From Neckera pumila (Eukaryota; Streptophyta; Bryopsida; Hypnales; Neckeraceae): 64,000 nucleotides of DNA. Made by a program: the position numbers and the translations under genes. The stretch's first letter is position 1; every line of letters starts with the position of its first letter. Below are positions 13,941-64,000 of this stretch, one piece after another. The DNA lies in NCBI GenBank assembly GCA_963969595.1, contig OZ018412.1:12030501-12094500 (forward strand), read 5' to 3'. The notes below the pieces were generated by a model. The model was given only the letters and a program-made list of their open reading frames with translations. It ran no database searches and was not told the origin of the DNA.

Positions 13941-13983
13941 CTAGAGGATTCAGTCTAATGGGATGAATAGGGCGAGATGGATG

Positions 13984-18552: not shown

Positions 18553-18868
18553 TTAACCCTTAAAGGACCGTTGTCCCTTCGGGGACAAATGCAATTTCGG
18601 GCAGGTACCTTTGGGTTAAATTTTTGCCTTGATTTTTTGAAACTTTTCTTGAAGATAGAAAAACTAAAAAGCTTTGTAGGAATATTATTATTTTTTCAAT
18701 TGGTGTCTGGAAACAAAAGTTATGGCCAAATAAGCTCAAAACAGGGAGAGGGGGCAACAATTTTTTTTTGCAAAATTTGCAAATTTTTTTATTGAATTTT
18801 TTTTCTCTTAAATTATATTTTTGTCTATCTGGAAAGCTTTGATTCATTCTACTTGGATTTATTATGAG
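18553..18868 (-). mobile_element. P element fragment P1 (one TTAA end)
   Basis: TTAACCCTTAAAGGACC is followed by GTTGTCCCTTCGGGGACAA and a stretch matching, in reverse, the right half of the complete element at 21153-21735 (GGCATAACTTTTG and AATCAAAGCTT motifs). The other half is missing, and G2 starts about 90 bp further on. Confidence 0.65.
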
Positions 18869-18960
18869 ATCAATAACAAATCATTTTTTTAATATTAAAA
18901 ACAATAAAAAAAAACATTTTTCAATCAAAAATCTGACGGGGCGCACCAACTGACTGCTCC

Positions 18961-20612
18961 ATTACATTCAGTAGCCTTCAAAGAGGTTGCTTTTCCCTCC
19001 CTAGAGTCCTCATCCACAAAATTCATCCTCAAAAAATTAATGTAAGCTTAGGCACCAAGATAGTGGTAGTACACTATGTTTTGTTTCATTTTCTTTGTTA
19101 ATTTTAGGACCACATACAAATCATTAAATATTTGTAGAAAAAGATGTTGGCAAAGAATCCAATGAATAATGCATTACAACCATTTGTCATCAATAACATA
19201 TTTTGGGTTTTCAAATGAAAAGACAACTCTACATATACACATGGGGTGGTAGGAGGTAGAACAACCCATGTGGGATAAATAAATTTGAATTTGTAGTTTC
19301 TCAAGCACTCATAGTTAAGTCAAAAACAAAGTATTGTGTTAAAAATAGAATTTTAGACCTCATTTAGGCATAGTGAAATAACTTTTCTCAAAACACTTTG
19401 AACTAAAAAAAGTTTTTAAATGAACATAAGATTCACCTCCAAAAATCCGTTTGGCATTTTGAATCTCCAATCAAAAGTTATAGACAAATTTGAGAGAGGG
19501 GTGGGAATGAATATTTTCTTTAACATTTTTAAAAATCCTCTCTCTAGATTTGTCTATAACTTTTGATTGGAGATTCAAAATGCCAAACGGATTTGTGGAG
19601 ATGAATCTTATGTTCATTTAAAAACTTTTTTTAGTTCAAAGTGTTTTGAGAAAAGTTATTTTACTATGCCTAAATGAGGTCTAAAATTCTACTTTTAATA
19701 CAATTCTTTGTTTTTGACTTAACTATGAGTGCTTGAGAAACTACAAATTCAAATTTATTTATCCCACATGGATTGTTCTACCTTCTACCACCCCATGTGT
19801 ACATATAGAATTGTCTTTTCAATTGAAAACACAAAACATGAATGACAAACATATCAAAGTGATGTAAGGTAAATGACCCCATTGCGGTCAAATGACCCAT
19901 GATGGACACCTAATGACTCCATTGTGGTTTTTTAGACCACAATCAATGCCTTACATGGTAGTTATGGAGTAATTAGTGACCTCAATAGGTACTTCCAACT
20001 TTTCAGTATAGAATTCTTTGTAAAAGTTGACTTCTTAGGTCTTCCATTTTTGAAAATGTTGTGACTACATTGGGTAGGAAGATGACCATATTGGATTCAG
20101 ATTTTGTTGGTCATGAAGTAGCCTACAGACTCCTATGGGCTGATCACTTCAAAAATTCAGAACTAATTCATACTTAGTCCAAAAAATATAATTTCAAATG
20201 CTCTCACCGTCTCTCACACTTATCTTTGTGTGGGAAAAAATTTGAAAAATTTCAGCAATGGCATGTAGGCACACTCCTAATTCTGACCGCAATGGGGTCT
20301 TTTACCTTAACTCAAGAATTGAGATAATTGATTTGTATAAATCGATTGCCATTTTGAATAAGTTTGCTATTTTATTTATAGATTTAATTCAAAGTCCTTA
20401 ATTTGTTGTTAATACCAATGTGCATCTACGACCTTGTAATTGACTCAGGCCCCTTCCTGGATTCTGACAAGTTTTGCCAAGTGTCTTTGCAGTTATTTAT
20501 TTGGTGTGGAATATATCACACCATTTCATCTCTTGGATGAAATGATGTGGTATATTCCACATCATTCTGTCTAGGGAAGGTAGTCGCAGTGACTGCTACT
20601 AAATGTTATGTC
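18961..20612. mobile_element. G element, copy 2
   Basis: The ends ACATTCAGTAGCC (18964) and GCTACTAAATGTTATG (20595-20610) are inverted repeats. It has the foldback core F2 at 19222-19810 and the GTGGTATATTCCACATCATT block near 20505-20575. At 1.65 kb it is the most complete copy here. It carries an extra internal block (about 19860-20300, with repeated 'AATGAC/TGACC' phrases) not seen in G1. Confidence 0.65.
19222..19810. repeat. Foldback core F2
   Basis: The arms of about 290 bp meet near 19516. CATGGGGTGGTAGGAGGTAG at the left mirrors CTACCACCCCATGTG at the right, and the central GAGAGAGG/CCTCTCTC closes the stem. The arms are highly similar by eye. Confidence 0.9.
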
Positions 20613-21152
20613 ACCATACAAATTTTCCGACTACTAAATAATTTTGATTGATATTTCCTGTCAATGCATATTTTCATGCAAGAAAGTGTCCCTCTCATGA
20701 TCTAAACTTTTCTCTAATGTTTTACTTTTAGATACTCTTGCCAGATCTCTTAGAAAAGACGCATTCTTATCTCTGTACCATCGCTCTTATGAGCCTGCCA
20801 TGGCAGATGCGTACTAGGCTTGATAGTTACAAAAGAACAGAAGTGTGAATAGTTGAATTCTTATGTAGTTATAAATAATTCAAAGACCGGAAGATAAAGA
20901 CAAGTGTAGTAGACATACCTTAAGTGTTTGCAGCAGCAATACAGACAAGTGGGGTTAAGAATAGGCCAGTGTTTTAAACATGAATCTACAGGATTCAAGC
21001 AAATAAGTGTCTCTTCCTTGTCATACTCGGCCATGAGAATCAACACCCCGGTAGCACATTGATTACACCAATTTGTTTTGAATAAACGACCTAACATTTG
21101 TACCAAGCACACAATGGCTTCTATTGTGTCGCAATCACGACTCCAAAGTTCA
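20613..21152. other. No gene seen
   Basis: The 83-residue minus-strand ORF at 20861-21112 has no recognisable motif. No repeat is seen. Confidence 0.35.
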
Positions 21153-21735
21153 TTAACCCCTAAAGTCCCAAGGCCATTTTTCAGTCAAAAATCACTCAAA
21201 ACTGCTACTTTTGTTGCGTTCATCTAAAAGATGAGAAAAAATATTTTTTTTAGAAAATAACCGTAGGATCTTATACTACACTTTTTACAGATCATGTAGT
21301 AAAAATTTTGTGATGTTTGACCGTACGGATTGAAAGATATCAGCATTCAAAGTGAAAGAAAAAGTTTTTTTCAAGAAGATGCTCTCATTGCCCGAAAAAC
21401 AAGATTGTCCATAACTTTCTCATAAAAAGTCCAAATGAAATGAATCAAAGCTTCCCAAATAGGCAAAAATATAATCTATAAGGAAATAAAATAAAATAGA
21501 TAAAATAAAATTTTTTGCAAAATTTTTTTGCTGCCCCTTCTCCCCTGTTTTGAGCTTATTTGGGCATAACTTTTGCTCCCGGGCACCGATTGAAATAAAA
21601 ATTACATTCCCAAAAGCTACTAAGTTTTTCTATCTTATGGGAAAGTTTCAGAAGTTTCATTAAAAATTGAGCTCATAGGAACCTGCCCAAAATCCATTTT
21701 GTCCCCCGTAGGGACAATGGGACTTTAGGGGTTAA
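21153..21735. mobile_element. P element P2, complete, 583 bp
   Basis: TTAA + CCCCTAAAGTCCCA at the left and its exact complement + TTAA at the right give an inverted repeat of 18 bases including TTAA. GGGACAATGGGAC adjoins the right end. It is non-coding. The TTAA at both sides fits a piggyBac-type target duplication. Confidence 0.85.
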
Positions 21736-22250
21736 CTCCTAAACTTCTTTGACTATGTTTCACCCAAAAACACTCAAAATGGACCCTTTTGATAGCAAAG
21801 GCCCCCTCAAAATTGAAAATTGAAATCTTGTTGCATCCAAGTGTAAGATCTAGTATTAGACTACTTTATTATATTGTAGTGAGGAAATGAGACGTTTTGA
21901 CCTCACAGATTGCAAGATTGTAGCATTTGAAGTTGAAAAAATTTCTTGCAGGGGCATCCAAATTCTGGGAAGCTTTGGTAGGGGGAGGCTTTTGCACAAA
22001 TTCATTCACTTTTTTGCTTGAACTTTTTTGGCTCTCTTTTTATGACAAATTTTTCCACATGTTCAAAAAAATTCATAACAATTCAAATTGGGGAACATGT
22101 ACCAAAAAATTCTAGTAGAGAACTAGCTTCAAGAAAAATCTCGTATAAAGCTTTTTTTCAACAATTTATGGCTTGCACATACATTACCTTCTTCAAACTA
22201 TAAACGGTGAAGTTCTAGATTTCATCTAGTCTTTATAAAAACCAAAAAAA
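21732..22250 (+). mobile_element. P element fragment P2b sharing the TTAA of P2
   Basis: TTAACTCCTAAACTTCTTTGAC resembles the left end of the 925-bp subfamily at 33596 and 58791. CAAAAACACTCAAAATGGACC and GACCTCACAGATTGCAAG are internal matches. No right terminal repeat is present. Its left TTAA is the right TTAA of P2. Confidence 0.5.
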
Positions 22251-22334
22251 AAAAAAAAGGAAATTGGCCAAACATGTGGTTTTGGCAAGCTTGATGAATC
22301 CATTTTGTTAACCTCCAAAGTCCCAAGGCATTTC

Positions 22335-23608
22335 CATTAGAGAACTTCTCAGCCCTCTGGAGGGCCGCTCCAGAGCAGCTAAAAGCACCCCACGATTACG
22401 TTTAACTTTGCTTAATGATTTGTTTTTCCCCTATAGTCGATCATCTGAAGTCACAATGTCCGATGACTGTCAGTGGTTTGAAATCCAAGTACCAGTAGTT
22501 AAATAATTAGGGTTCAAGGCTTGTAATACAACTTAACCCTAATAATTGCATACCTTGTTCTAATCAAGTTATGAATAAAAAGCAAATGTCAAAAATAGTC
22601 CAAGGACATCTACCATCAAGGGTTTTTTAGTGGCATCATAATAGACTTAATTCATTGACAATTGGTGAGAAAGAAGGGTGAAGAGGTTATTTTTATAGGG
22701 TTACCAATTGTCCATGGTGAATCTTCAAAGGGTATGGGTTATTTAGAAGAGAGACCACTCATTGTCAAATGCAGGAATTGTGTTAAAACTAGAATTTTAG
22801 ACCTCATTTAGGCATAGTAGAATGAATTTTTTCAAAAGATTTGAACTAAATAAAGTTGTAAATTCAAGCTAATGTTCATCTCCAAAAATCCGTTTGAGGT
22901 TTTAAGTATCCAGTAAAAAGTTATAAACAAATTTCTAAAAAGGGTTGAAAGGGAGATTTTCTTTGACATTTTAAAATACCTTCTCCTAATTTTAACTAGA
23001 ACTTTTTATTGAAGGTTCTAAACCTCAAACAGATTTTTGGAGATGAAAACTAGCTTGATAATCCAACTTTCTTTGGTTCAAAGTTTTTCAAAAAAATTCA
23101 TTCTACTATGCCTAAATGAGGTCTAAAATTCTAGTTTTAACACAATTATTACTTTAAATTGAACTATGAGCGGTTGAGAAACTACAATTCTAAATTATAT
23201 ATCCCACATGGATTGTTCTACCTCCTACCACCCCATGTATACATAGGGATCTTCTCTTCTCATCTTCAAACACCTTAAACTTAGTGGCTTTAGATTGAAG
23301 CTAGTTGGAAATGTAAGTTCTCAAATTTTTTAGCAACTAGCTTGAAAACCCTCTTCATATTTCTTAATTTCATTGAATTTGATTAAATTCCCAATTAATA
23401 ACACTGTATGCTCACGCAGTTGAACAATAAACAGACTTCTACTACACCTCATTATTAGAGTCCTAATCTCGGTCCTAATGTCTTTTGCAAAATTCACACA
23501 CTCTGACAATGCCCTGTGGCTATATGCTCCTACTAAATCTCATGCAATTAATAGACTGGTTTAGTCACTGTGGAGTGGCCCTCTGGAAGGCTGAGAATTT
23601 TTCTAATG
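22335..23608. mobile_element. D element D4, inside P3 and carrying foldback F3
   Basis: The left end CATTAGAGAACTTCTCAGCC and the right end GGCTGAGAATTTTTCTAATG are inverted, with GCCCTCTGGAGGGC inside. It is 1,274 bp, much longer than other D copies because a foldback unit occupies 22770-23245. Confidence 0.7.
22770..23245. repeat. Foldback core F3
   Basis: The arms contain CCTCATTTAGGCATAGTAGAATGAA and its inverse and meet near 22975. The outer CATGGGGTGG part is present only on the right side (CCTACCACCCCATGTATAC), so the left arm is shortened. Confidence 0.75.
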
Positions 23609-24693
23609 CCTAAGATTTTCTACCTCAAAAAACATTGAAAACTGCCATTTCTAATGCATTGATTGAAAATCCGTACAAAATTAATTTTTTCAAAATCTAA
23701 CTGTAGGATCTTGAATTGAAATTATATGAGAAGATGTGGTAAAAATCTTATGCAACTTGACCGTATGGATTGAAAGATAATAGCACTCAAAGTGACATGT
23801 TTTATTTTTTAGGGCCTTATCCAAAAATTTTAGATGGCTTTGACTGCCTCTTGTGGAAATTTTCTACACTATGGACATTAAGTTTAATTTTTTTCATAAT
23901 CAATATCATGTTAGGCATATGTTCACCAATTTTCAAGTCAATCCTAGACATGGAGCACATCCAATCAAATCTTGCAATGCAACAATGTCCCAAAATTTGA
24001 CAATACATCACCCAATCTTTGCACACATTTTCCCACCGCATATTTCAAAAACTCAGTAATCCAAACCGTGGATTGAAATAGATAATCATAATTGACAAGC
24101 CCAAAAGAAAACTCAAATATTCAAAAACATGTAGTTTTAATGTCAATTTGTAGCAAAAGGCAAGCTCTAAGACATGGGGCAGCTCTTGAATCATGGACTC
24201 TCTACTGCTCCTATGATGTTCCCCAGATGTTTCCAAGTTCCCCATCAGTTCCTCAAATTTTTGTTTGTGTTCCCGAAGCTAATTTTGCAAGGATAGCAAC
24301 TTCAGAATCCCAAGCCTCTGTTGACATGTCTAGGGAGTGTGACTAAGCTCCCCGATGCTCCCCTTCCAATGTGCTCCCCGTCCTCCTTCCTCTGTCTCAT
24401 CCAGTACAAACCTGTTGCTCTTGCCTTCTCAAGCACTGCAGCCCAGAACTTCAATTTTTGAAAGTCAATGCCATAAGCCTTGCTCCTACTGCCCCCTCTC
24501 CCCCATTTTCACAAAAAAACCTCATAACTTTTGAACCAAAGGTCTGTTTTACATAAATATTGCATGTGCATGAAGCTCTTAAAAAACTACACGTGTGATA
24601 AAAGTTTCAAAAATATGTGAAATAAATTGAGGTTAAACAAGCCTACCCGAAATCAATTGTCCCCCATAGGGACAATGGGACTTTAGGGGTTAA

Positions 24694-26860
24694 ACAAAGG
24701 TGTTGAACCACAAAACAAATGGAGATATTGGATTCAAGACATAGAAAGAAGCTAGCTTAGGAATTCTTTGATTTATTGATGGAGTCCTCTGATTTGACAC
24801 ATGGATGATGTTGAATATGACCTCTTGCTCCATTAGAAGACAAATTATTTCATCACAAGACATACTAATTAGTCCAGAGACATATATGAAGAGGGCTAAA
24901 CCAGTACTAAAAGAATTATTGAATTATTGAAGAGAGAGAGAGAGAGTGAAGACATGACACCCCATTACGGGCAGTTTCCTGCAGTTCTAGGATTCGTGAC
25001 AGGCAGAGCACACAGATAAGTACGTGAACTTTCATGAAAGTACTGTTGCGATCAAAACTTGGGGGATTTTCATAGTATACAGCCGGGAGGAGGGTGGGTA
25101 CAGTATAGATCATAGCTATATGAAGCTACTCAATTGAGTACCTTAAAATTTTTTCCAAAGCTAAAACTGGAAATCTCACGAGATCCTATGCACAACAGAG
25201 TTAGAAGGCAGTAGGTGTGAACTTCACAGCATACTCATGTAACCAAGTAACCGTAATGTAACGTAAGAATATGAGGAGTTTTTTGAAGAATAAAAACCCC
25301 AGCACTTGTGACCAGCGAAACAATGCGATGCGACTGCCCTTAACTCTCTACAAGTGTGAGTATGAGTGAACAAGTGTAGAAGTAGTAAAAAAGTTAGTGA
25401 TTCCGCCATTCGATTGTGCCGAAATATGGAGGGAATGTTCCTCACCTGCACCCATGCCACAATTCGAACAAAGTGTTAGAACCGTGACGTATGCAAGGTG
25501 TCTGCAAAACATTCCCATTGTTATCCGTGTCACCAAGTTGCAGCATAAACGAATAGCAAAAAACTCAAGAAACTCGGAGTCCTGTACAAGTGTTCAGTAT
25601 AAGCAAAAACAACTCTGTTTCCAAGAACCTGTTTTCCATCGTTCTCTATGGTACCACACAGTATTGAGAATGAGTTTGAGAGGGTCCACTTGCACTTCTC
25701 GGCGGATCAGCCACACTCCCTCCATGCAGGTGCAACAAAATGAAATCGCAGCTCTAGGAACAACGAATCAGTCACGTTGTGAGCTCAAATACAGCAAAGT
25801 TTGCTTTTGGTGGAGCCGCCCCTGCTTTGGTGCCATTAGATCAGTGCTTTCCAAGCATGGAGCCGTCATTCTTGTAGGCCGGACCACTTTTCAATTGTTG
25901 CATGTTAACTCTTGCCGTAATGCAGGTAGGTGACTGTGCAAATTTTGGCAGTTGTGGAGTTAATGTGGAGAGCCACAGCATAAAATGGAGGCTTCTGTAA
26001 AAGAGCCGATCATTATGCGAGCTGGGAGGAATACTTTCTCATGAATACACATGATTCAAATCCATTGGTAGATCCCATGATTATTGAGTTCTAATGTATA
26101 ATTAGAATACAAACAATACAAGCACCGAGATAATTTCTAAGTATGGATTGACAAGAACGATGTAAAATGAAAATCATAACCTCGATGAAAAATCATAATA
26201 TCGATGAAAAACGTTCACTTTGTTCCAAAATGGAACGGAACCCGAGAGAGAGAGGGAGAGAGAGAGAGATTGGTTTTTAAAAACACAATTCAACCTGAAC
26301 AACTGGTGTCCAAGATGGACTGCAATTTTCTTAATTCAAAAAATATATATTTATAATTTTGTAGTATGCTGTATATTGCTCTACAATTTTTGAAACAAAA
26401 AGGGCTTTTTCTAGTCCCCATTCTCTTACTATTGTCTAGGATTGTAGGATGCTAAAAATACTAGTTTATTTTATGAACAATAAATACTAGTTTTAAAAAA
26501 AAACATTGGAAAATCAATTATATTATAAATAAAATAGTTCCACCAATGATTCAAAATGTCAACTCCCTACCAGAGGTATCAATTCAATTAGAATAATAGA
26601 AGATACACATGACAAGATCTAAGTTGCCCAACTACACATGTAAAAGTGTTTATTGTGATTCTCAAATTTCAACAATGATAAATAATTCCGTTCTCAATGA
26701 CAAACAATTCTCTACTCAAGGACCAATATTTACAATTATTTATATAGCCATTTGGGTAAATAAAAGACAACCTCTATTTAGCTTATACTTGTACAATAGT
26801 ATGCAAATATGAAAAAAACAATCAAATAAGGAGGATACCATAGCATTGTAGAGAATGCAT
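24694..26860. other. No confirmed gene; (GA)n tracts
   Basis: Short AG runs lie at 24929-24948 and 26242-26270. Composition is less AT-rich between about 25000 and 26000 than around it, which may mean formerly genic or low-copy DNA. An ORF there is listed separately. No repeats of the main families are seen. Confidence 0.35.
25397..25933 (+). CDS. Unrecognised 178-residue ORF, doubtful
   Basis: This is one of the longest undisturbed frames outside the named genes, in a locally GC-richer stretch. It has many Cys, Ser, Arg and Gln, no hydrophobic segment and no known motif. It stops at a TAG inside CAGGTAGGTGACTG, which is also a good splice donor (CAG/GTAGGT), so it could be one exon of a longer transcript or simply chance. 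I assign no function. Confidence 0.15.
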   Translation: MIPPFDCAEIWRECSSPAPMPQFEQSVRTVTYARCLQNIPIVIRVTKLQHKRIAKNSRNSESCTSVQYKQKQLCFQEPVFHRSLWYHTVLRMSLRGSTCTSRRISHTPSMQVQQNEIAALGTTNQSRCELKYSKVCFWWSRPCFGAIRSVLSKHGAVILVGRTTFQLLHVNSCRNAGR

Positions 26861-26883
26861 GCCCGACAAGGTTGTCTACGATT

Positions 26884-27652
26884 CACGTGATTTGAGGCTT
26901 GTAGTGATATTCTTCAAAACACCCTTGGTTTACGCAAAGATACATTTTATTGTGTGCTTGACAATAGAATGCACAATGTTGGTCACCACAAACAAAACAA
27001 GGGCGCCATATACGTGACTAAATTGGCAAGTGCCGCCTTTCTTTATGAACTCCCTCATCCACATCCATCCCCCTTTTATGCTAATTTTGGATGAGCACAT
27101 CACAAAAATTCACCTTGAACCGCAATTGAATCATTGGCACTTTTCCTTGAGGATGGGCTCAAATAATACCAAGGTGTATGGTATACATATTCACCACCAA
27201 CGTATCCAAGAGAAAGTAGAAGATCTATGCCACCACTTGTGCAATCATATTTGACTTGAATATGATGCCTACAATTGGTTGCCTACATCTACGCCCCTCA
27301 TGTGCATGGTGTACTCCAAATGCATCGGCGAAGTCGGAATTGCATCTTGGACCGCTCCATTTCTAGAGACATCGTGGGAATGGGGACATATGAGAATGGA
27401 ATAGGCAATGCATGGGAGGAAATTAGAAATACGGGATGTTTGTCCTTTTAAAGGACACAACAAGTTTCCCTACTATCACGCATGGCCCATTCCAAAGTCT
27501 CTTGCAAGGAATTGTTCCAATTTTGTAATGTTTCAGTGCACAAGGAATTCCTACATGGTTTGATTTCATAGTGCCCAAGGCATAGATGTGCATTACCACT
27601 AAATCACAAAAAGTCCAATACCAAAGAAGTAGTTGTCCATCACTATTAGTCT
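26884..27652 (-). pseudogene. piggyBac-type transposase, C-terminal half, heavily decayed
   Basis: Family blocks occur in order on the minus strand across shifting frames. MDNYFFGIGLF (about 27645) holds the second catalytic Asp, followed by YALGTMKSNHVGIP, RNGAVQDAIPTSPMHLEY and HMRGVDVGNQL (third catalytic Asp, GAT near 27290). Then come ASYSSQ and LHKWWHR, and finally a Cys-rich tail RPCFVCGDQHCAFYC...YLCVNQGCFEEYHY, the zinc-binding domain that in piggyBac transposases recognises the element ends. Stops and frame changes make it inactive. A D element (27708) lies just upstream and the N-terminal half is not found. It is the only sequence here of the class expected to move TTAA-flanked elements. 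Confidence 0.8.
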
Positions 27653-27707
27653 ATTATGTGTCATCATCCCTCTAAACTTGCTAGCTTTTTTATGACTACG
27701 TTGTGCA

Positions 27708-27995
27708 CATTAAGAAAAATTTCAGCCTTCTAGAAGGCTGGTAAGGAATTGATTTACGGGGCCTCCTTTGGTGCAATTTCAGAATGAATAAAAAAAAAAA
27801 AAATTGAAAAAAAAATATTGAAAAAATAAAAATCTGATTTGCACTACTAGTGCCACATAAGCTCCCAATTTTTAATATTTTAAAAAAATGATAAAAAAAT
27901 AATAAAAAGACTTTACATTTTGATGTTTTTTTCATAATTGCATAGAGCAGGTGCAGCACTCGCGGCCTTCTAAAGGGCTGAAATTTTTCCTAATG
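27708..27995. mobile_element. D element D5
   Basis: CATTAAGAAAAATTTCAGCC at the left and GGGCTGAAATTTTTCCTAATG at the right. GCCTTCTAGAAGGC is a palindrome at the left end. It is 288 bp, non-coding, and adjoins the upstream side of the piggyBac remnant. Confidence 0.75.
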
Positions 27996-28273
27996 CTAAT
28001 CTTGGTTTCCCCTTGTGGGCGTTTATTTATCTACCCTTAGTAAATAGACATACACAACCAGGTTCTAGTTTCCTATGCAAAATTCTATCCTAAGTGGGTG
28101 CCTAAGCATAGTTCCAATGTGCCTTCCAAGCAATGGATCTTTTCTAATCGCTAAACATCCAAACCACTTGCAAAAAGGACCCCGAACATCCTAATCTACG
28201 GATGACAATAACTGAGGTGCCCTAACTATTTAAGCTGCAAGGATCTTGGAGTATGCAAGGCTACAGTCTAATT

Positions 28274-29182
28274 TTAAACCCTAAAACACCAAGGCTTATT
28301 CTGCCCAAAAACTCTCAAAATTGCTATTTCTAGAGCAAAGACTAATAAAAAATGAAAATTGCTTTTTTTCCACATCTAATTGTAGGATCTTATACTCAAC
28401 TGATATAGAAATGTGTGGAAAAAATTTCAGAATTTTTGACCACACAAATTGCAAGATATCTGTGTTTAAAGTGAAAAAAACAAGTTTTTTAGCACATTGT
28501 GGGACTAGATTTTTTGACTTTGAACATTTTTAACTTAAATTATTTGTACTACAAAGTTTTGAGCTTTACATCTTTATAGTGGAGAATTGAACTGAGAATC
28601 TAGGAAAAAATAATTAAAAAATAATAGTTTTCATTCTTAAAAAAATTGTTAAGTAAAAGTAGAAACAAGATAGAAGGAAAATCTAAAATATTAATATCTT
28701 TTAGATGGAATTAAAAAGCACTAATTCCAATGGTGAGATTGTTCAAGCAAGCAAACTAAACCATGCGGAACTTTTCTTTTGGAAAAATTATAAAAATTGC
28801 ATTCCAAAATGAATCCTACAAGTTATTTTTTTAAGAAGATGCTCTAATTGTCCAAAAAACAAGATTGTCCATAACTTTCTCATAAAAAGTCCAAATGAAA
28901 TGAGTCAAAGCAGATAGACAAAAATGTATTCTGTGGGGCAAAAAAAATTTTTTAAATTTGTGCAAACTTTTTTTGGTGCCCACTTTCCCATGTTTTGAGC
29001 TTATTTGGGCATAACTTTTGTTCTCGAGCACCAATTGAAAAGAAAAATTATATTCCCAAGAAATTTATCATTTTTTCTGTCTTCAAAAAAAATTCAGAAA
29101 ATCAGGACAAAAAATCAGCCCATAGGTATCTGCTTGAAATCCCATTTGTCCCTTGAAGGAACAATGATCCTTTAGGGGTTAA
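28274..29182. mobile_element. P element P4, 909 bp
   Basis: The left end is TTAAACCCTAAAACACCAAGG and the right end CAATGATCCTTTAGGGGTTAA. The interior is closely related to P6 (37802-38727): ACTCTCAAAATTGCTATTTCTAGAGC, GTAGGATCTTATAC and GAGCTTATTTGGGCATAAC are shared. Non-coding. Confidence 0.8.
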
Positions 29183-30475: not shown

Positions 30476-30527
30476 TTAGTTTTTTTTAACAACAAAAAAA
30501 AGATTTTTTCTAAGAAAAATGGTATGT

Positions 30528-33595: not shown

Positions 33596-34520
33596 TTAAC
33601 CCCTACAGTTTCATGACTATGTAATCACCAAAAACGCTCCAAAACTGCCATTTCTAATACAACTACCACATTTTTGGAAAAAAACAATTTTTGACACATG
33701 TAACCGTAGGATCTTGTAGTATGATATTTTGAAAATATGTGATAAAAATTTCAGAAAATTCCACCGTGTGGATCATAAGATATAAGCATTCAAAGTCTTA
33801 AAATCCATTTTTTCAATCCTATGAAAAATTGGGCCGTTGCACTTTGCAAGCTCACTTTTCAGTGAAAACATGCAACAAAGGTGGTGCTTCTTTGAATTCA
33901 GTTTCTAAACAAGTTGTCTATATGCTTGAAAAATTTCACATCATTTGGAATTGTACAACATATAGGAAAAAATAGTAAGTAGAAAGAAGTAGAAAATGAT
34001 TCAAAAGACTAAATTGTTAAAAGTTTAATCATGGAATTTAAAAATGCCAATCCCAACAGTTGTAATGTTGTAATTATCAATGTACATCCTAGAACTTTTT
34101 TTTTCCAAAAATATTGAAAATTGAGTTAAATAAACGACTTTCAAGTTTTTTTTTAGAGTAGACAATCCATAACTGCCCGCAAACCAAAACCCTCATAACT
34201 TTTTACTCATTGATTGAAATGGAATGACTCAAAGCTTTTTAAGTATATATAAATGTAGAGAACCAATTTAAAAAAAAACTCCAAAAAAAATGATTTTTTT
34301 TTATCTGCCCAAATTGCCCAGTTACGAAAAAAAGTAACATATTAGGTCACAACTTTTGACTTGTATTTTGAAATGTCATGGAACTGCGTACACATGAAGA
34401 TATTCCTCGTCCCCACCTTCTATTAAAATTTCAGCCTCAAGTATGGATATCTCTAGTCACACGTACCTGCCCAAAATTTCTATACGGCCAAAAAACGCAT
34501 GTTGGTCCTTTAGGGGTTAA
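33596..34520. mobile_element. P element P5, 925 bp
   Basis: TTAACCCCTACAGTTTCATGAC at the left and TTGGTCCTTTAGGGGTTAA at the right. It is closely similar along its length to P10 (58791-59724) and, inverted, to P11 and P12, so these four form a subfamily. Non-coding. Confidence 0.85.
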
Positions 34521-35502: not shown

Positions 35503-36827
35503 GTGGATATGGAGCCTACATTTTGTGCTCAAGTGGTGCTCATGTGGCTCATGCTCTCTATGACAATGAACAATTGCTTGAGTTACAAAAGCCGGGCTTG
35601 GGAGGTCTTGAATTCCGGTGGAGGGACTTCTATGGGATTTCATTTTCTTTGGTTGTTGTTCTTGCTTTGTAAGAGGAAGAAACCAAATGCTCCCCATCTC
35701 TTTTGGGTAGAGCTTTGGCAAGCGACACATTGGAATTATGTAGAGAGGGTAGTGTGGAGAGCAAGTAATGAAATGCACCACAACAAATTCAAAAAGTTTT
35801 ATAGAATGAATTTTGGTGCATTTGAAAACTTGGTGAACATGTTGACACTATTCTTGAGAAGTAGGTGTGTGAATCAAGTGAGGCCACAAATGGAAATCAA
35901 AAAAATTGTGGCATGTGTGCTTTATAGTCCGGAGCACATGGCCATAGTCCGGAGCACATGGCGGATCGTTTTAAAATTGGTGCTTCAACCATTAGGAAGT
36001 ATGTTGACATTATTTGTGACATACTTACAAAGAAAGACAAATTGTTTAGTCATTACATTTGTATTCCTAGTGGAGACCGCCTTCAAAGCATCATTTCCGA
36101 CTTTGAAGAAATAACGGGATTGCCAAACATTTGTGGAGCTATTGATGGGACTCATATACCATTAGCAGAGAACCCTAGTAGAAGAGTGACATTAGCTGCT
36201 AGTGACTTTTTCAATAGGAAAAAACTTCATTCTATTGTTCTACAAGCGGTATGTGATTCACAGAAGATTTTTTGGAATGTTTGTGCCGGCCAACCTGGAG
36301 GAGTGCATGATGGTGGTCAATTCAAAGTCTCAAGTTTGTACAAGAGTTTGAAGAACCAGGACATTCTTCAACAACCGGTAGTTTGGGTGGAAGATGTCCG
36401 TTGCACTCCTTATTTGATTGGAGATGCTGCATATTCCATCCGAAGCTACTTGATGAAGAATTGAAAGGCACCAAACGATTTGGGAAAAAAGCGATTTGAT
36501 AATTCAATGAACTCTAGAAGAGTGGTAATTGAACAAGCGTTTGGGAGCTTGAAGAATAGATGGAGGATCTTGAGGCATTTCAATTCAAGAGTGGATAGGG
36601 CTGCAAGGATCACTGTGGCATGTTGTTGGCTTCACAACTATTGTGAGTTGTTGAATGAAGCAGAGCCTCATGTGGCTAATGCCTATTTGAGAGGAGATCC
36701 ACTAGTTGGATTTGGGAATGTAAAGTTACCCGTGCCTAGGGATGGAGAAGCATCAAAACATGAGCAAGAAAGATTGAGGGAAAAATTGTATGCACAATGG
36801 GTTTTGGAAAACCCTAATGATGAATGA
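35503..36827 (+). pseudogene. PIF/Harbinger transposase, copy 2, nearly whole with two lesions
   Basis: The N-terminal part (35503 to about 35942) contains FKKFYRMNFGAFENLV and QMEIKKIVACVLY. A 20-bp tandem duplication at 35923-35962 shifts the frame. The next frame continues HMADRFKIGASTIRKYVDI, GAIDGTHIPLAEN, VCAGQPGGVHDG, IGDAAYSIRSYLMKN, then a TGA at 36462-36464, then RRVVIEQAFGSLKNRWRIL and WLHNYCELL to 36827. The three catalytic acids are all intact: Asp at 36144, Asp at 36423, Glu at 36531. The family cuts and pastes DNA at 3-bp TTA/TAA targets. Convergent with the SANT/Myb remnant at 37557-37036. It is far better preserved than the copy at 2600, so it is younger. Confidence 0.9.
35923..35962 (+). 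repeat. 20-bp tandem duplication breaking the transposase frame
   Basis: Units 35923-35942 and 35943-35962 differ at the first base only (T/C). Since 20 is not a multiple of three, the reading frame changes exactly here (SPEHMA then SPEHMADRF). Confidence 0.9.
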
Positions 36828-37710: not shown

Positions 37711-38912
37711 AATTTGAGGCCTTCAGATGGCCATTTCAAGCCTGTTCTCCAATTTGACTCAATTTTGTGAACAACAGTACGGGCTGTCAGAATATATTTA
37801 ATTAACCCCTAAAGGACCAAGGCCATTTTCTGCCAAAAAACACTTAGAACTGCCATTTCTATAGCAAAGAGAAAAAAAAATTGAAAATTGTTTTTCTTTT
37901 CACATCGAACCATAGAATCTCATACCCAATTAGTATGACAACGTGTGGAAAAAATTTCAGAATTTTTGACTGCACAGATTGCAAGATATCTGCGTTTAAA
38001 GTGAAAAAACAAGTTTTTCAGCACATTGCGGGACTAGATTTTATGACTTTGAACATTTTTTGCTTTAATTTTTTGCTCTACAGAGTTTTGAGCTTTCAAT
38101 CTTTATAGTGGAGAATTGAGTTGACAATCTAGGAAAAAAAATGAATCCAAAAAAACTTAATTTTCATTATTAAAAAAATTGTTAAGTAGAAGTAGGTACA
38201 AGATAGAAGGAAAATCTAAAGCATTAATATCTTTTGTATGGAATTAAAAAGCACTAAATCCAATGGTGAGATTGTTCTAGCAAAAAAACTAGACCTTGTG
38301 GAAATTTTTTTTTTTTTAAATTGTAAAAATTGCATTCAGAAATGAATCCTACAAGTTATTTTTTTCAGGAAGATGCTCTAAGTGCCCAAAAAAAAGATTG
38401 TCCATAACTTTCTCATAACAAATCCAAATGAAATGAATCAAAGCTTCCCAGATAGACAAAAATATAATCTATTAGAAAAAACATTTAAAATTTTTAAAAA
38501 TAAATTGCAAAATTTTTTTGGCTGCTCGACATCCCCTGTTTTGAGTTTATTTGGGCATAACTTTTTTTCTCGGGCACCAATTGAAAAAAAATTATATTCC
38601 TATAAAGCTTAGCAGTTGTCCTATCTTCAAAAGAAGTTTCAAAAAATCACGACAAAAATTCAGCCCGTAGGTACCTGCCCAAATTCCCATTTGTCCCCCG
38701 AAGGGACAATGGTCCTTTAGGGGTTAAAAAAATCAAATATCATTTTATGCAAAATACATATATATACATTTAATTTTAATTTTAATTTTTTCCAAAAATG
38801 ATGTGGCACGGTCTTAGCCACATCAGTCAGCTGCTACGGTTGAATTCTTGTAGCCTGGGAATGCAGGAGAACCTAGAGTCTTCTAAAGGCCCCAAATTCC
38901 TAACTTTTAATG
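37711..38912. mobile_element. D element D7, inside G4, containing P6
   Basis: The left end CATTAGAGGGAATTTGAGGCC and the right end GGCCCCAAATTCC...TTTTAATG are inverted. P6 occupies 37802-38727, leaving about 280 bp of D sequence, the normal size for this family. Confidence 0.7.
37802..38727. mobile_element. P element P6, 926 bp, complete
   Basis: TTAACCCCTAAAGGACCAAGG at the left, and CAATGGTCCTTTAGGGGTTAA at the right with GGGACAATGG inside. Both sides carry TTAA. It is closely related to P4 and inserted in D7. Non-coding. Confidence 0.9.
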
Positions 38913-42210: not shown

Positions 42211-42343
42211 GGTGCAAAATATTAATTTAATATTTGGATTCTAGGGGAACTGGTCCACTTGAAGGTCCCAAATTCTCTTTACTGGGAAATCTGTTCAGGG
42301 TGCATCATCTGGGTGCTCAAACCAATGGCATTCAATGCAAGCT

Positions 42344-42349
42344 TTTATT
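42344..42349 (-). promoter_or_regulatory. Polyadenylation signal AATAAA, COMT copy 2
   Basis: Minus-strand AATAAA seven bases beyond the stop, at the same position as in copy 1. Confidence 0.5.
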
Positions 42350-42355
42350 GCTTGA

Positions 42356-44983: not shown

Positions 44984-45576
44984 GGTGTCCGTGGGATTCG
45001 AGCTCCAAAAGTTCGGCAAGCAAAGCCACTGCAAGAGAGTCACAGCACGGGTCACAGCCCGAATAGTCACAGAGATCAAGTGCAACAGAATTGTATCAAT
45101 GAGCTACCGCTAACTTCGACAATCAGGGGCACTGCAATAGATTCATAGCTCCACTCACAGCCCGAATATTTAAAATCTCATGCAACAGCATCGTGTCAAG
45201 CAGCTACCACGTACTTACCAGTTCAATGGAGGTACAATTGATCCTCGCTTTCAACAGGATTTGCCTCTCACTGCGACAAGCTGAACAAACCGAACACCTG
45301 CCGCAGTGAGCTGTCTGACTCTATCTGAAACTAGTATCGCAATATCGGTAATCGAACAGGTTAACCAATGAGTATATCATAATACGTATCTACGAAAATG
45401 AATTTGACAATAATTACAGAAATCCCAAGGTCTATGAATCGATCACAGCCCTACGCCACGTTACTTCTAACTATTCAGCAGCTTCTTGGCCTGCCTTCTC
45501 ACACTTACCGACTCAGAATACAGTCAAAAGAAAGGTGACATTCACAGAACTGAATTCAAAGAAATTTCATGAGAAG
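44984..45576 (-). promoter_or_regulatory. Upstream region of COMT copy 2 with possible 5' leader intron
   Basis: A good acceptor (CTCTCTTGCAG/TGG, exon side 45028) and a donor (ACTG/GTAAGTACG, at 45218) define a possible 189-bp leader intron. Copy 1 has the same pair at 13749 and 14738. No TATA box stands out. Confidence 0.35.
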
Positions 45577-50087: not shown

Positions 50088-51041
50088 GTAGCCTTCTTCC
50101 GAACGGAATGATGTGGAATATATCACATCATTTTATCTGAGGGATGAACTGATGTGGTATATTCTCCATCTTTCAAACTACAACGACAAGTGGCGTTCCA
50201 TATGAGACTTGTCTATACTATGCACAAAGAGCAATGTTAAACTTAGGCGAGCTTAACATTTAATCAAAGTATAAAAATAAGCATTGGAGCTTTAAACTTT
50301 AACCTTGAAGTACATATTGAGTAAAAAATTCACGGAGAACATGGAGTTCAACTACTACTTTGCTTTCTTTTATAGCCATTTATTTCTTGTGATTTGAAAG
50401 GAGAAGAGGAGCTCTTTATGTACAAATGGGATGGTAGGTGGTCAAACAATCCATGTGGGATATGTAAGTATGAATTTGTAGTTTCTTATCGCTCATAGTT
50501 AAGTCTAAAGTAGGAATTGTGCAAAATTTGGAATTTAAGACCTCATTTAGGTATAATAAAATGAAATTTGCAAAAAACTTTGAACTAAAAAAACTGGGAA
50601 ATCAAGTTACGTTTCATCTCCAAAGAGCCGTTTGAGGTGTCAAGCCTCCAATAAAAAGTTATAGACAAATTTCATAAAGGAGTTGGAAGGGAATTTTTTT
50701 GACATTTTCAAACATCTTCTTTTGAAATTTGTCTATAACTCTTGAGTGGAAGATCTAAATCTCAAATGGAATTTTGGAGATGAAACTTAATTTAATTTGG
50801 ACTAAATTCAATAGTATCTAGCTCCGCTAATCACCCATTTTAGCTAGCAAGTGTCGTACTACTGCTATTTGGAGCACAAAAGGCCCTCCCTTGTGTTCTT
50901 TTGTTTAGTTTTGGAGCATACCATAAATATACTACCACTATCCTGGTACTGAAGCCTACATTAATAAAATGTAGATGAAATTTGTGGATGAGGACTCCGG
51001 AGAATAAAAGACAATTTCTATGAATGCTACTGAATGTTATG
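50088..51041. mobile_element. G element G3, 954 bp, inverted relative to G1
   Basis: ATGACATTGAGTAGCC at the left and GCTACTGAATGTTATG at the right are inverted repeats. CGGAATGATGTGGAATATATCACA lies inside the left end, and CTCATCCACAAATTTCATC (read in reverse) inside the right. The foldback core is cut short at about 50790. Confidence 0.7.
50405..50790. repeat. Foldback core F4, truncated
   Basis: The left arm is complete (ATGGGATGGTAGG...CTCATTTAGGTATAATAAAATG). The right arm stops after GGAGATGAAACTTAATTT. Confidence 0.75.
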
Positions 51042-55359: not shown

Positions 55360-55800
55360 TTAAATCCTAAAGTCCCATTGTCCCCTTTGGGGACAAAATG
55401 GATTTTGGCCAAGCTCCTACAATATAATTTTTATTTCAATCGGTGTTTGGGAGCAAAAGTTACGGCACAAAAGGTCCCTTTTCAGTGCGGCGGGATAGGA
55501 TTCGTTTCTGAATGCAATTTTCACAATTTTTCACAAAACATTTTTTGATAAGGTTAAGTCTGCTTTCTAAAACAATCTCACCATTGGAATTATAGTGTTT
55601 CAATCCCATCTTAGAGCAATTAATGATTTAGTTTATTTTCAATCTTGGACCTACTTCTACTTAACAGTTTTTAAAGAGTGGAAATTTAGTGTATTTTTTT
55701 GGAAAAAATTTCCTAGACTTTCAATACAATTCTTCCATACAAAGAAATTTAAATTTAAAATCTATAATGCAAAAATATTCCACAAATAGTGGTCAAAGTC
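55360..55800 (-). mobile_element. P element P7, one end only
   Basis: TTAAATCCTAAAGTCCCATTG then GTCCCCTTTGGGGACAA, followed by sequence matching P9 as far as TTTGGAAAAAATTTCC and AATATTCCACAAATAG. No second end. Lies in the R array. Confidence 0.65.
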
Positions 55801-56681
55801 ATTTGAAATTGCACGCTAGTGTTCAAGAACACTATTTTATCCAAAGCAGACTACTTTAGTCTCACCGTTGCAAGACTGAAAACTCCCAAACGGACTCTCA
55901 GTGTGGAGAGGGGTCACGGGAGGTGCTCGGTTTGGAAACATTATTACATTATTTAGTTGTACACATCATGCAACTCTAGATGTGCTAGTTTCTTCCTACT
56001 TGACCCTAAACTTCATTTTTTGTCATGGTTTAGTCTCAGAGCTGCAAGATTAACCATGTAACGCTGCCATGGACACTAAGTGTCCAATGAATGACAAAGA
56101 ATCTTTGCATGTAGGACCAAAGTGTGATTGTTCATCCTCAAAATTTCATACAAAAAGGAGAGGCCTTGCACAATAGTTTGACCTTGAATGAATACTTTTT
56201 GGTTTTCTTAAAGCAAGTGATGCACACTATGTCAAAGAGGATGATTTTTGCAGAGACTAGCCCATCCTTAGGGCATCCTTAGTCCTAAACGGTATATTCG
56301 TTCACACAATATATTTTTAACTTTTGAATGGTAAGGAGTATATAATTAGAACTTGAAATTTGTATCATTGGAAGCACATCCAAAAGCACTTTGAGTAGGT
56401 GCAAGAAATTTCAAATTTGAACATTAGAGAACCACTTTGAAAGCAAGGTAAAAGTCACAAATTGTAGAGTACCTCAATAAATCATTGTTACCAAAGCATG
56501 ATTTGACCATAGACACTCTAAAAGGAAGGAGCCCCTTTTAGACTTGTGTCTCCAAAATTGTGTCTTGGCCGTGGGGTGTGTTCGGTTTGGAAATGTTTTA
56601 ACAAGATTTGTGCACATCCTCTACTTTTATTACACATTAGTCTCCTCCCACTCGCTGCTAAAATTTGTTTCATGTTGAAGT

Positions 56682-57325
56682 TTAGCCCCTAAATGCCCAA
56701 GGTCTGTTTTAGGCTTCCTGGAATTTGCTTTAAATTGAACAAAATGCCAACATTTTGGTAAGTTGTATCAATTTTTTTGAATTGTAACCGTACAAATTCA
56801 AACTAGACATGTTAGAGATCTTATAGGAAAAGAAAACACAACAATATCATTTATGGAGTAAAAGATTATAATGTTTGACCATGAGGGTGCTAAAATTGCA
56901 AAAATCTTTCACTCTTCTTTACACAAGCCAAATCTAAAAAGTTGTTGACCAAAGACATATGAGGTTAAAGGGCCTAACTTGTACAACCCCGATCAATTTA
57001 TGGCTTCTTAAAATCTACTCTACAATTTTTTTAAATGAACTTTGAATGTGATTTTTTCTCTAAGATCTAGTGTATTTGAGGCTCATTTCCAAGAGCTCTC
57101 AACACTATGAGAAGTCAAGATTGCAATGGGTACCCTTGTACAAAAACTTGAATAGAAAAATCACTATCATTTATTTTCAAGATCAGATTTTTAGTGCTAA
57201 AATTACACTTCAGAAAGAACTTTCTAAATATTTAAACTACTAAAAATAGCAACTTGGTTAGGTTTTATTTAACTTCAAAGTTTTGAAAACACTAGATTTG
57301 GGTGCCTTGGGCATTTAGGTGTTAG
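56682..57325. mobile_element. P element P8, 644 bp, flanked by TTAG
   Basis: TTAG + CCCCTAAATGCCCAAGG at the left, and CCTTGGGCATTTAGGTG + TTAG at the right. The flanks belong to an R unit. An unoccupied R unit reads GGTTTAGTCTCAGAGCTGC near 56027-56045 where P8 sits, with one TTAG. The element therefore duplicated four bases on insertion. Non-coding. Confidence 0.85.
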
Positions 57326-58354: not shown

Positions 58355-58790
58355 TTAACCTCTAAAGTCCCATTGTCCCCTTAGGAGACAAAATGGGATT
58401 TGGACAGGCTCCTACGCTCTCAATATTTGTCGTAATTTTTTTAATTTTTTTGTAAAGATAGAAAATCACATTAGCTTTCCAAAAATGTAATTTTTATTTC
58501 AATTGGTGCCCAGTAGCAAAATTTATGGCAGAAAAACTCCAAATTTTAGTTTGGCAGGCAGAAAAAAATCTTTACAAAAACTTTAAATTAAAAATTTTAA
58601 AAATTTGTTTCATATAGATTTTATTTTCATCTACATGGGAAGCTTTTATTCATTCCATTTGGATTTGATATGCAAAAGTTATTGACGATCTTATTTTTTG
58701 GGCAATTAGAGCATCTTCTTAAAAGAATAACCTGTGGGATTCATTTCTGAACTCAATTTTGGCAATTAAAAAAAAAATAGTTTTGCAAGG

Positions 58791-59724
58791 TTAATCCCTA
58801 AAGTTTCATGACTATGTAATCACCATAAACGCTCCAAAACTGCCATTTCTAATACAACTACCAAATTTTTCGAAAAAAACAATCTTTGATACATGTAACC
58901 GTAGGATCTTGTAGTATGATATTTTGGAAATATGTGGTAAAAATTTCAAAAAATTTCACCGTGTGGATCATAAGATATAAGCATTCAAAGTCTTGAAAAC
59001 CATTTTTTCAATCGTGCAAAAAAATGGGCAGCTGCACTTTGCAAGCTCACTTTTCAGTGAAAAAATGCCGATAAAGGTGGTGCTTCTTTGAATTCAGTTT
59101 CCTAAACAAGTTGTCTATAGGCTTGAAAAATTTCACATCAGTTGGAATTGTACAACATATACGAAAAAAATCGTAAGTAGAAAGAAGTAGAAAATGATTC
59201 AAAATACTAAATTATTAAAAATTTAATCATGGAATTTAAAAATGCCAATCCCAACGGTTGTAATGTTGTAATAATCAATCTACATGCTAGGATTTTATTT
59301 TTTTCCAAAAATATTGAAAATTGACTTAAATAAATGACTTTAAAGTTTTTTTTAGGGTAGAAAATCTATAACTGCCCACAATTCAAAAACCCTCATATCT
59401 TTTGATTCATTGATTGAAATGGAATGACTCAAAGCTTTTTAAGTATATATAAATGTAGAGAACCAATTTCAAAAAAAAAAAATTCCGGAAAAAATGATTT
59501 TTTCTGATTTGCCCAAATTGCCTAGTTACGAAAAAAAGTAACATATTAGGTTACAACTTTTGACTCGTATGTTGAAATGTCATGAAACTTGGTACACATG
59601 AAGATATTCCTTGCCCCCACCTTCTATTAAAATTTCAGCCTCAAATATGGATATCTTTAGTCACACATACCTGCCCAAAATTTCTATACGGACAAAAAAC
59701 GCATGTTGGTCCTTTAGGGGTTAA
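58791..59724 (+). mobile_element. P element P10, 934 bp, nested in P9
   Basis: TTAATCCCTAAAGTTTCATGAC to TTGGTCCTTTAGGGGTTAA. Near-identical in layout and wording to P5 (33596-34520). TTAA at both sides lies within P9 sequence. Confidence 0.9.
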
Positions 59725-60124
59725 GATTTCTAGCTAGAACAATCTCACCATTGGGATTAGTATATTTCAACCCTATCTTAGAGCTATTAATGATTTCATT
59801 TTTCCTTCAATCTTGAACCTACTTCTACTTAACAAATTTTTAATGAATGAAACTAAGTGTTGTTTTTTTGAATTTTTTTTCTAGATTCTCAACTCAATTC
59901 TTCATCATATAAAATTAGAAATTCAAAATCATTAGAGCAAAAACTTTAAGTTAAGAAGGTTCAAAGCCAAGGAATGTAGTTGAACAAGGTGCATAAAAAC
60001 TAGATTCCTTCACTTTAAATGCAAATATCTTGCAATCTACACGGTCAAAGTTTCTAAAATTTCTTCCACACATTCTTACACTAGTGTAGTACAAGATCCT
60101 ATGATTAAATATGCAAAAAACACA

Positions 60125-61059
60125 TTAACCCCTAAAGGACCAAGCGGCGTTTTTTGGCAACATAGTGATTTTGGGCAGCTCATTGCGGATGGAAATTTTA
60201 TTTTTTTTCTTTGAAAATTTCACACAATGTGTGCCCAAGGAGTAGCTTTAAGGCCCAACAATTTTCAAGGCTTTTGACTAAATGGTTAAAAAGTTATTGG
60301 ATGATATGTCATTTTCAATGGTCGGCGGGCAACTCAAAAAAATTCTGAAAAATCGCTTTTAAGAAAAATAAAAATTTGAAATTGGTTCTTTAGGTTTATA
60401 TAAACGTATAAAGCTTTGAATTATTCCATTTTGATTTATGAGATGAAAATTATGAGGTGTTCTAATTTGCGGGCAGTTATGGATTCCCTACTAAAAAATA
60501 AACTTTGAAGTCCTTTATTTAATTCAATTTTTAATGTTTTTTGAAAAAAAAAAGAAGCATAGGATGCATATTGTTTATTGCAACATTACAACCGTTGGGA
60601 TTGACATTTTTCAATTCCATAATTAAATTCTTAACAATTTCGTGTTTTGAATGATTCTCTACTTCTTTCTACTTAATATTTTTTTCCTATATGTTGTATA
60701 ATTCCAAACGATCTGAAATTTTTTAAGCATGTATCCAACTTGCTTTGAAGAATGAATCCAAGGAGTCACCACCATTTTGGAAATTTTTCCATTTAAATGT
60801 GACCTTGTGAAGTGCAGCTGCCCGATTTTTCGCAGGGTCCAAAAAACGTTTTTTGTCAATTCAAATGTTAATATCTTGCAATCTACAAGGTGGAAAATTC
60901 TAAAAAATTTTCTACATATTCTCAAACAAGTTTACTACAAGTTTACTACGGTTACATGTGTCAAAAAATGTTTTTTTTCTAAAATTTGGTACTTGTAATA
61001 GAAATGGCAGTTTTAGAGTGTTTTTGGTGAAAACATAATCTCTGACCTTTAGGGGTTAA
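60125..61059 (-). mobile_element. P element P11, 935 bp, nested in P9
   Basis: TTAACCCCTAAAGGACCAAGC at the left and TCTCTGACCTTTAGGGGTTAA at the right. The interior is the reverse of the P5/P10 subfamily (CGGGCAGTTATGGATTC, ACAACCGTTGGGATTGACAT). The second insertion into P9. Confidence 0.9.
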
Positions 61060-61143
61060 AATTGTTTTTTTGCTCTTTACTATAAAAATGGCAGTTTTGA
61101 GTGGTTTTTGATGGAAAAAGAGCCTTGGGACTTTCGGGGTTAA

Positions 61144-62390: not shown

Positions 62391-63011
62391 TTCAATGCTT
62401 GAAAATTTTATGTAGCAATGGAGCGAATTTTAGCCAATTCTGTGAATGCTGGTGCCGAGAGTCCTTCTGGAAGGGTCCCAATTTGCAACTGAATTTAACA
62501 AAATTGTTTGCTTGGCTTTGCAAAATGTGTGTTGCAAACTTGAATGATGTTTGACACCATGCAATTTATGAACTTAAGCTTACCATCTGCAATTTCTTTA
62601 TCTGGGGGTGAGAGAACTTACTTGCAGCTTTGGAAATTCAGTGACTCGGAAGAGAAAATTATGTAGTTAGATAACTGATGAGCTGTGCTAGCGGCGTATA
62701 AGTTATCGTACATAACCGATTGTACATTTTTCAATCACAACCTTTGATCTACATGATCTAAGGGCATAGGAAGCAAGTTATGAGTTGCAATAAGTAATGG
62801 CAATGGTGATGGGTTGCCAATGCGATGGTGCCACATTAGCGTTGAAAAGTCAACAACTGGTTATGTTGATTAGTCAATCAAGGGTTCAGAAATGGTGACA
62901 TTGGTTGGAAGTCCCGTAGATGAAAACGTGTATTGTCCATGCAATCTAGAATTTGAGATTCTCTCAGTTTCTATTTTATGTGCATGTTGATTTTTAATAC
63001 CTCAAATTGAG
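62391..63011. other. No gene seen
   Basis: Neither coding frames nor family repeats are recognised. An ORF at 62297-62554 lies mostly in P12. Confidence 0.35.
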
Positions 63012-63235
63012 GTGTTTGTTTTGTTTTATTTTGTTTTGTTTTGTTTGTCTTGTTTGTCTTGTTTGTTTATTTAATAGGTTGAGATTTAAGAAATGATGAG
63101 CTCCTAGCCACGCCATTGGAAAGCTCTTTGCAAGGAGGGGTGCATGGACTTTGTTTCATGGTGTTTGGACCTATGGTGTGAAAGTTATTGAATTTCAAAG
63201 TTTTTATAAATAAAAAAATGGAATTGAATTATCTT
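63012..63235 (+). mobile_element. Fragment of a G element
   Basis: A TTTTG-rich tract, then GGAAAGCTCTTTGCAAGGAGG, GTTTCATGGTGTTTGGACC and TTATTGAATTTCAAAG match 6768-7110 in G1. No ends or foldback are present. Confidence 0.6.
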
Positions 63236-63818
63236 TTAATTTGGAAAAATGTAACTTTCACATCACATGTCCAAATGCCACAAACCAAAGCCCTTGCACT
63301 CCGTCATTCATAAGACTTTTAATTTGTATGAAGAACGCAAACTCTCACACCGCAACAAAGATCTTGCACTCCTCTTTTGTTTTGTGGAGTCTGACTCATT
63401 GTAGAAAATATATTGAATTTTGTAGTTTAAAAAAAATCATACTACTAAAATCATAGCTCCCTCTATAATGTCACAAATGCTACCATTAATAATAGGGGCT
63501 CATGCTTGCTATGCTACGCATTTATTGTACCATATATTAGTAAAATTTTGATATATTTGAAAAGAATGCATGATAATGATTTCAATAAGTCTTTGAAATA
63601 ATTAATTTTAATACTTTGTAAAAATATTTTCAATCATGCATATATAAAAATAATATTTTCACACAATATTATATTATAGAAATAGAGTAGTAGTTTGCAA
63701 TCACCTCTGTAATATCACTTTTACAACTTTTATGATTTCAAAATTTTATTGCTACTACAATACTACCAAATGATTTGAAAAATCTATTCAATTGAAGCAA
63801 TTTTGGATTTCACAACAA
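63236..63818. other. No gene seen, very AT-rich
   Basis: Short ORFs only. Confidence 0.35.
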
Positions 63819-64000
63819 CTAACCCCTAAAGGACCAAGGCCTTTTTTCTGCCAAAAAACTCTCAAAACTGCCATTTCTAGAGCAAAGAGTAAAAAAGTTC
63901 AAAAATTGCGTTTTTTGTACATCTAATTGTAGGATCTTATACCTAACTAGTATGAGAATATGTGAAAAAATTACAGAACTTTTGACCACATAGATTGCTA
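63819..64000 (+). mobile_element. P element P13, cut by the right window edge
   Basis: CTAACCCCTAAAGGACCAAGG starts a copy of the P4/P6 type (CAAAAAACTCTCAAAACTGCC, GTAGGATCTTATACC). The first base of TTAA is C here. Confidence 0.75.

Follow-up and report, generated by a model that had tools for sequence, protein, structure and literature searches.

PiggyBac is in wide use as a genome tool. The element of T. ni requires unlike ends and carries a 19-bp palindromic internal repeat (PMC7351741), and a survey of animal piggyBac elements describes termini starting with CCC together with occasional TTAG and CTAA duplications (PMC10813416). Here, we analyzed a 64-kb stretch of genomic DNA (hereafter the window) that holds 14 copies of a family of TTAA-flanked elements, designated P, as well as the remains of a transposase gene. 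The P copies are very probably non-autonomous DNA transposons of the piggyBac superfamily residing in a moss genome, an assignment made because of their TTAA target and 4-bp flanks, their CCC-type ends, the nested insertion of some copies into another, the lack of coding sequence, and the transposase relic found in the same window.

Mentions of the superfamily in land plants are scattered. A 2015 survey places PiggyBac among the superfamilies of all groups including land plants (PMC4438587), a 2024 review gives it a brief mention as one of the plant superfamilies (PMC10794571), a review of miniature inverted-repeat transposable elements (MITEs) counts it among the angiosperm MITE superfamilies (PMC10004981), the table of a fern genome has 1230 PiggyBac entries (PMC6890710), and the abstract of the animal survey states that piggyBac was isolated from plants too (PMC10813416). 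The table of six plant terminal inverted repeat (TIR) superfamilies in a 2022 review omits it (PMC9033089), a grass pea table gives 0 (PMC9845207), and the relevant text of a switchgrass survey gives none (PMC3325252). The preliminary description of this DNA, made from the sequence alone, had called the superfamily little described in land plants; the omission from the 2022 table agrees with this, while the survey, the two reviews and the fern table that list it do not. Each of the land-plant mentions found amounts to an entry in a repeat table or a line of a review, and it is fair, if not absolute, to say that a native element is little described. No description of a moss piggyBac element was found in the open-licence literature, supplements excluded, among the matches listed. 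One moss genome paper (PMC10619864) was rejected as a record, the matching word in its text being 'piggybacking'.

The P copies were recovered via self-comparison, profile search or a terminal-motif scan, and comprise nine complete copies and five that are incomplete or truncated at the edge of the window:

18553..18869, minus strand: A-type fragment of the right end; left part absent, TTAA at 18553-18556
21153..21735, plus strand: complete, shorter A type; TTAA/TTAA, 579 bp including one flank, right TTAA common with the 21732 copy
21732..22311, plus strand: copy not assigned to a subfamily; clear left end (homology at 21738-21940) and uncertain right end, possibly at the TTAA of 22308
22308..24693, plus strand: complete, A type; TTAA/TTAA, interrupted at ~22333-23611 by another TIR element
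28274..29182, plus strand: complete, A type (A1); TTAA/TTAA, 905 bp including one flank
33596..34520, plus strand: complete, B type (B1); TTAA/TTAA, 921 bp including one flank
37802..38727, plus strand: complete, A type (A2); TTAA/TTAA, 922 bp including one flank
55360..55802, minus strand: partial, A type; right end and internal A-type pieces, left end missing
56682..57325, plus strand: complete, divergent subfamily; TTAG on both sides, 640 bp including one flank
58355..61143, minus strand: complete, A type, host of two nested P copies; TTAA/TTAA
58791..59724, plus strand: complete, B type (B2), nested in the 58355 host; TTAA/TTAA
60125..61059, minus strand: complete, B type (B3), nested in the 58355 host; TTAA/TTAA
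61559..62378, minus strand: partial, B type (B4); body and right end present, left end absent
63819..64000, plus strand: partial, A type; left end with CTAA, continues past the window edge

At least 13 elements, starting at 14 positions, had been proposed, and all 14 belong to P by homology or terminal motif. They had been described as complete or partial copies, which they are, with the corrections that 22308-24693 and 58355-61143 are interrupted by other insertions and that the copy at 63819 runs off the window. The proposal of at least two subfamilies also holds, as we distinguished A (eight copies), B (the copies at 33596, 58791, 60125 and 61559) and the divergent 56682 copy, which was identified mainly by its two termini (its body matched the P profile weakly, 10.9 bits, E 0.009); the 21732 copy was not placed. 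The copies at 21153, 21732 and 22308 adjoin each other, with one TTAA common to the first two, and the last two may share one as well, although it is uncertain where 21732 ends on the right. Element lengths are ~0.6–1.1 kb. Kimura two-parameter distances, measured for six pairs, range from 0.077 (B1-B2) to 0.356, the other five lying at 0.17–0.36, and the copies are therefore regarded as old and diverged. The absence of an open reading frame (ORF) was likewise borne out: no coding sequence was found in the P copies, the longest of 18 stop-to-stop frames of ≥ 70 amino acids located mostly in them reaches 106 amino acids, and the five P-copy frames submitted to Pfam gave no match at E ≤ 0.1.

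The terminal-motif scan used a 15-base motif from which the four flanking bases were excluded, so that the flank count is not circular. It returned 18 ends scoring ≥ 13/15, whereas six first-order random resamplings of the window predict 1.3. TTAA precedes 15 of these ends, and the remaining three are preceded by CTAA, TTAG and CTAA; two of the three are the ends of the 56682-57325 copy (TTAG on the plus strand) and the third is the CTAA at 63819, which puts both TTAG and CTAA among the flanks of P. Five lower-scoring ends were accepted by homology, giving 23 ends from the 14 copies, with TTAA at 20 and a CCC start at 15. The ends had all been given as TTAA-CCCCTAAAG: the TTAA holds for these 20, while the 56682 copy has TTAG, the 63819 copy has CTAA, the 28274 copy reads TTAA-ACCCTAAAAC, and the CCC start is not universal. 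The four flanking bases are identical on the two sides in all nine complete copies (TTAA in eight, TTAG in one). No consistent duplication beyond four bases was seen in these copies, the next base matching in 3 of 18 comparisons, which is about chance.

Nested insertions provide empty sites within the family itself. The older A-type host at 58355-61143 (minus strand) was struck twice by B-type copies (58791-59724 and 60125-61059), and when both inserts and one TTAA each are removed, the host aligns to its sisters A1 and A2 without a gap at the junctions; the nearest is a single-base gap situated 7 bases beyond one of them. At the corresponding sites the sisters have no TTAA (one site reads TAAA or TAGA, the second AAAT in either sister), and the host copy therefore appears to have possessed a TTAA of its own at each insertion point.

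Inverted ends span ~14–15 bp in A-type copies, with a consensus-like 5'-CCCCTAAAGGnCCA, and are shorter in B-type copies; beyond these inverted terminal bases, the left and right ends are unlike. Seven A-type right ends contain a palindrome with 7-bp arms near bases 15–33 (TTGTCCC...GGGACAA), in two of the seven with one weak or mismatched pair. Single-strand folding of these palindromes gave z-scores of – 4.0 to 0.0 relative to shuffled sequences, and no compensating changes were seen in them, so that as a structural feature the palindrome is suggestive only.

The best support for the piggyBac reading, missed in the preliminary description, is a decayed transposase located between the P copies at 22308 and 28274:

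26886..27708, minus strand: C-terminal half of a decayed piggyBac transposase, carrying the motifs DNYF, MRGVD and HKWW and a zinc finger, and broken by several stops and frameshifts (27649, 27667 or 27708 as first base, depending on the query)

Searching with a profile built from 60 piggyBac transposases returned minus-strand matches near 27 kb that were weak but collinear, and a frameshift-tolerant alignment of this profile scored 51.2 bits at the relic, compared with a maximum of 23.2 among seven null strands of 64 kb (plus strand, reversed, complemented, and four random resamplings). With softer penalties the score rose to 63.7 bits, covering profile positions 313–465 from 27667 to 27174 and including the blocks DNYF, GTMKSNHVGIP, LEYTMHMRGVDV and HKWWH; the zinc-finger stretch follows the HKWWH block at 27017-26886. 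The pieces are weak singly, as three of four frames gave no piggyBac family in Pfam and the zinc-finger frame gave zf-Tnp_2 at E 0.44 only, behind two other families. When read through with X at the breaks, the relic matched PF13843 with 49.3 bits (cut-off 22.4), the accompanying E-value being flattering since the frames were chosen by hand. A search with this read-through retrieved 42 proteins, all with PF13843, the best relative being P0161 (646 amino acids, 55% identical over 97%). As a check independent of the hand-chosen frames, the 42 relatives were compared with the raw window by tblastn, which yielded 131 hits at E ≤ 0.05 (best 2.7e−34), all of them at 26757-27783 on the minus strand. 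In a tree of 32 hand-picked proteins plus the relic, the relic joins P0161 (support 99/98) within a group of 16 environmental proteins, apart from 16 animal-type proteins (100/100). A piggyBac transposase was once present in this genome, and the relic probably belongs to the transposase lineage that mobilised the P copies.

P0161 itself appears to be a full-length piggyBac-type transposase and is encoded on a 4548-base DNA contig. Searches for loci related to the relic transposase gave none in viral contigs with P0161 as the query, four pattern matches in viral contigs with a 17-row alignment of relatives (0 confirmed), and 23 in genome contigs (0 confirmed). The P ends had 0 exact-pattern matches in viral contigs and prokaryote genome contigs, which is expected because P is a plant element. 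The N-terminal half of the transposase was not found in the window, where the sequence upstream of the relic is occupied by a TIR element at ~27709, followed by the A1 copy at 28274. A minus-strand stretch at ~31460 (YCFKFRVFEG, 19.4 bits) was rejected as an N-terminal fragment, its score lying inside the null range, and so was a motif at 26712 (score 12), downstream of the relic, as its right end: it has no TTAA, and ~14 matches scoring ≥ 12 are expected by chance.

The TIR element just upstream of the relic is a member of a second family in the window, with ends like CATTAGAAAAATTCTCAGCC, found at 27709-28000 and at ~22333-23611, inside the P copy 22308. For the latter insertion a 9–11 bp duplication is possible, although imperfect.

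The target site speaks against two of the rival readings, even though a TTAA duplication is hard to separate from one of TA or TTA in a single copy, as the element ends could be placed further out. A Tc1/mariner-type origin, with a TA duplication that happens to sit in TTAA, would leave the P ends symmetrical, since TA is the centre of TTAA, and the nested empty sites by themselves do not distinguish TA from TTAA; across copies, the outer bases are nevertheless T and A in eight of nine and equal on both sides in all nine, and eight or more TTAA targets out of nine would have a probability of 7e−8 under a TA-only target (window 4-mer counts), which makes this origin extremely unlikely. PIF/Harbinger MITEs, whose 3-bp TWA duplication would read TTA/TAA here, are another candidate: TTA is contained within TTAA, and the window has two Harbinger-type transposase genes or relics that could have driven them. 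With a 3-bp target, however, the two P ends become unequal by one base, whereas the TA reading keeps their symmetry, and the fourth base is A in eight of the nine copies (probability 9e−4 for at least 8/9 TTAA under a TTA-only target, from the same counts). In the exception, TTAG/TTAG, the fourth position is G on either side, in line with the prediction for a 4-bp duplication, and we consider a Harbinger origin very unlikely. Because of these flank statistics and the TTAG/TTAG copy, a 4-bp duplication with a strong TTAA preference is favoured over TA or TTA.

A further alternative is an origin of the P copies from Kolobok or Sola3 instead of piggyBac. Sola3 also targets TTAA, and Kolobok duplicates TTAA as P does. 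Kolobok is reported from a green alga and from red algae (PMC9587614), and the table of the 2022 review places Sola1 in Physcomitrella (PMC9033089). Kolobok termini are, however, of the form 5'-RR...YY-3' (PMC9587614), while 18 of the 23 P ends begin with CC and none with two purines, and among superfamilies with a TTAA target, piggyBac is the one whose transposase was detected in the window, the Kolobok and Sola transposases not having been searched with profiles of their own. On balance, a Kolobok or Sola3 origin appears unlikely.

Several observations weigh against the piggyBac assignment. Eight of the 23 P ends lack the CCC start (CCT in two, and CCA, CTC, CAC, ACC, TCC and ATC). The right-end palindrome is confined to A-type copies; it was not seen on left ends or on the right ends of B-type copies and of 56682, and two of the seven A-type palindromes fold no better than shuffled sequences. 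The window yielded no single element combining a transposase with the two P ends; of 12 TTAA sites listed in 24694-28273, none is followed by a P terminus, and the low-stringency comparison of the relic region with P gave short, mostly A/T-rich matches only. PIF/Harbinger transposases, a common plant type, occur in the window too, and Pfam covered only 34 window frames, so that other transposase remains may have been missed. In addition, all P counts and flank tables come from this one 64-kb window.

The reading that P is a piggyBac family, already proposed from the TTAA target and the CCC starts, is reinforced by the 4-bp duplication and the decayed transposase. A piggyBac transposase produced from another part of the genome and supplied in trans would bind the two unlike ends of a P element, cut the element out and join it to a new TTAA, which would thereby become duplicated. 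More tentatively, and with considerable doubt, we suggest that mosses host a distinct piggyBac clade (the relic, P0161 and related environmental proteins) with surviving intact members. P would be the non-autonomous swarm of this clade, its termini following a code of their own and the palindrome of its right ends acting as the internal repeat does in the insect element.

The remaining features of the window (G+C 37.5%) include other genes and repeats:

11221-14208 and 42305-45103, minus strand: O-methyltransferase genes or gene parts, a duplicated pair (DNA identity of aligned pieces ~75–85%)
~2736-3524 and 35928-36824, plus strand: two transposase genes or relics of PIF/Harbinger type (DDE_Tnp_4), both of them split across two frames

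Among named proteins, the top match to one of the O-methyltransferases comes from the moss Ceratodon purpureus (58% identity, 78% query coverage). In the same search, the environmental proteins covering most of the query reach ≤ 57%, near the Ceratodon value, and named liverwort, conifer and flowering-plant proteins ≤ 37%. The genome is therefore most likely that of a moss, which supports and narrows the earlier assignment to a land plant. The window scans for tRNA and for Rfam families (gathering threshold) were both empty. Foldback-like repeats were noticed at 19197-19840 (arms of 293 bases, 95% complementary), 4070-4372, 7377-7952, 22776-23147, 39191-39912 and 50599-50798, several of which are one family spread across the window.

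Compared with known systems, the P family is a known kind of element in a poorly described host lineage. It resembles the piggyBac superfamily (PF13843) and its MITE derivatives in the TTAA target, the 4-bp duplication, the rare TTAG and CTAA variants, the CCC-type termini and the unlike ends, and the relic near the P copies has the DNYF and MRGVD blocks and the C-terminal zinc finger of that superfamily. Kolobok has the TTAA duplication in common with P and differs in its termini (PMC9587614), and the PIF/Harbinger (Tourist) MITEs are likewise short TIR elements, common in plants and with TTA in the target, but duplicate 3 bp (PMC10004981) as opposed to the 4 bp of P. Unlike known piggyBac elements, P has a host that is most likely a moss, a terminal sequence of its own (CCCCTAAAGGnCCA), and at least three subfamilies of ~0.6–1.1 kb in which no ORF was found, while the clade of the relic is separate from the animal-type proteins in the tree. 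Our understanding of the piggyBac mechanism is not changed by this moss window; what it provides is evidence, at the level of sequence, that a land-plant genome has harboured the superfamily, and the P copies together with the relic indicate a place to look for intact plant piggyBac transposases.

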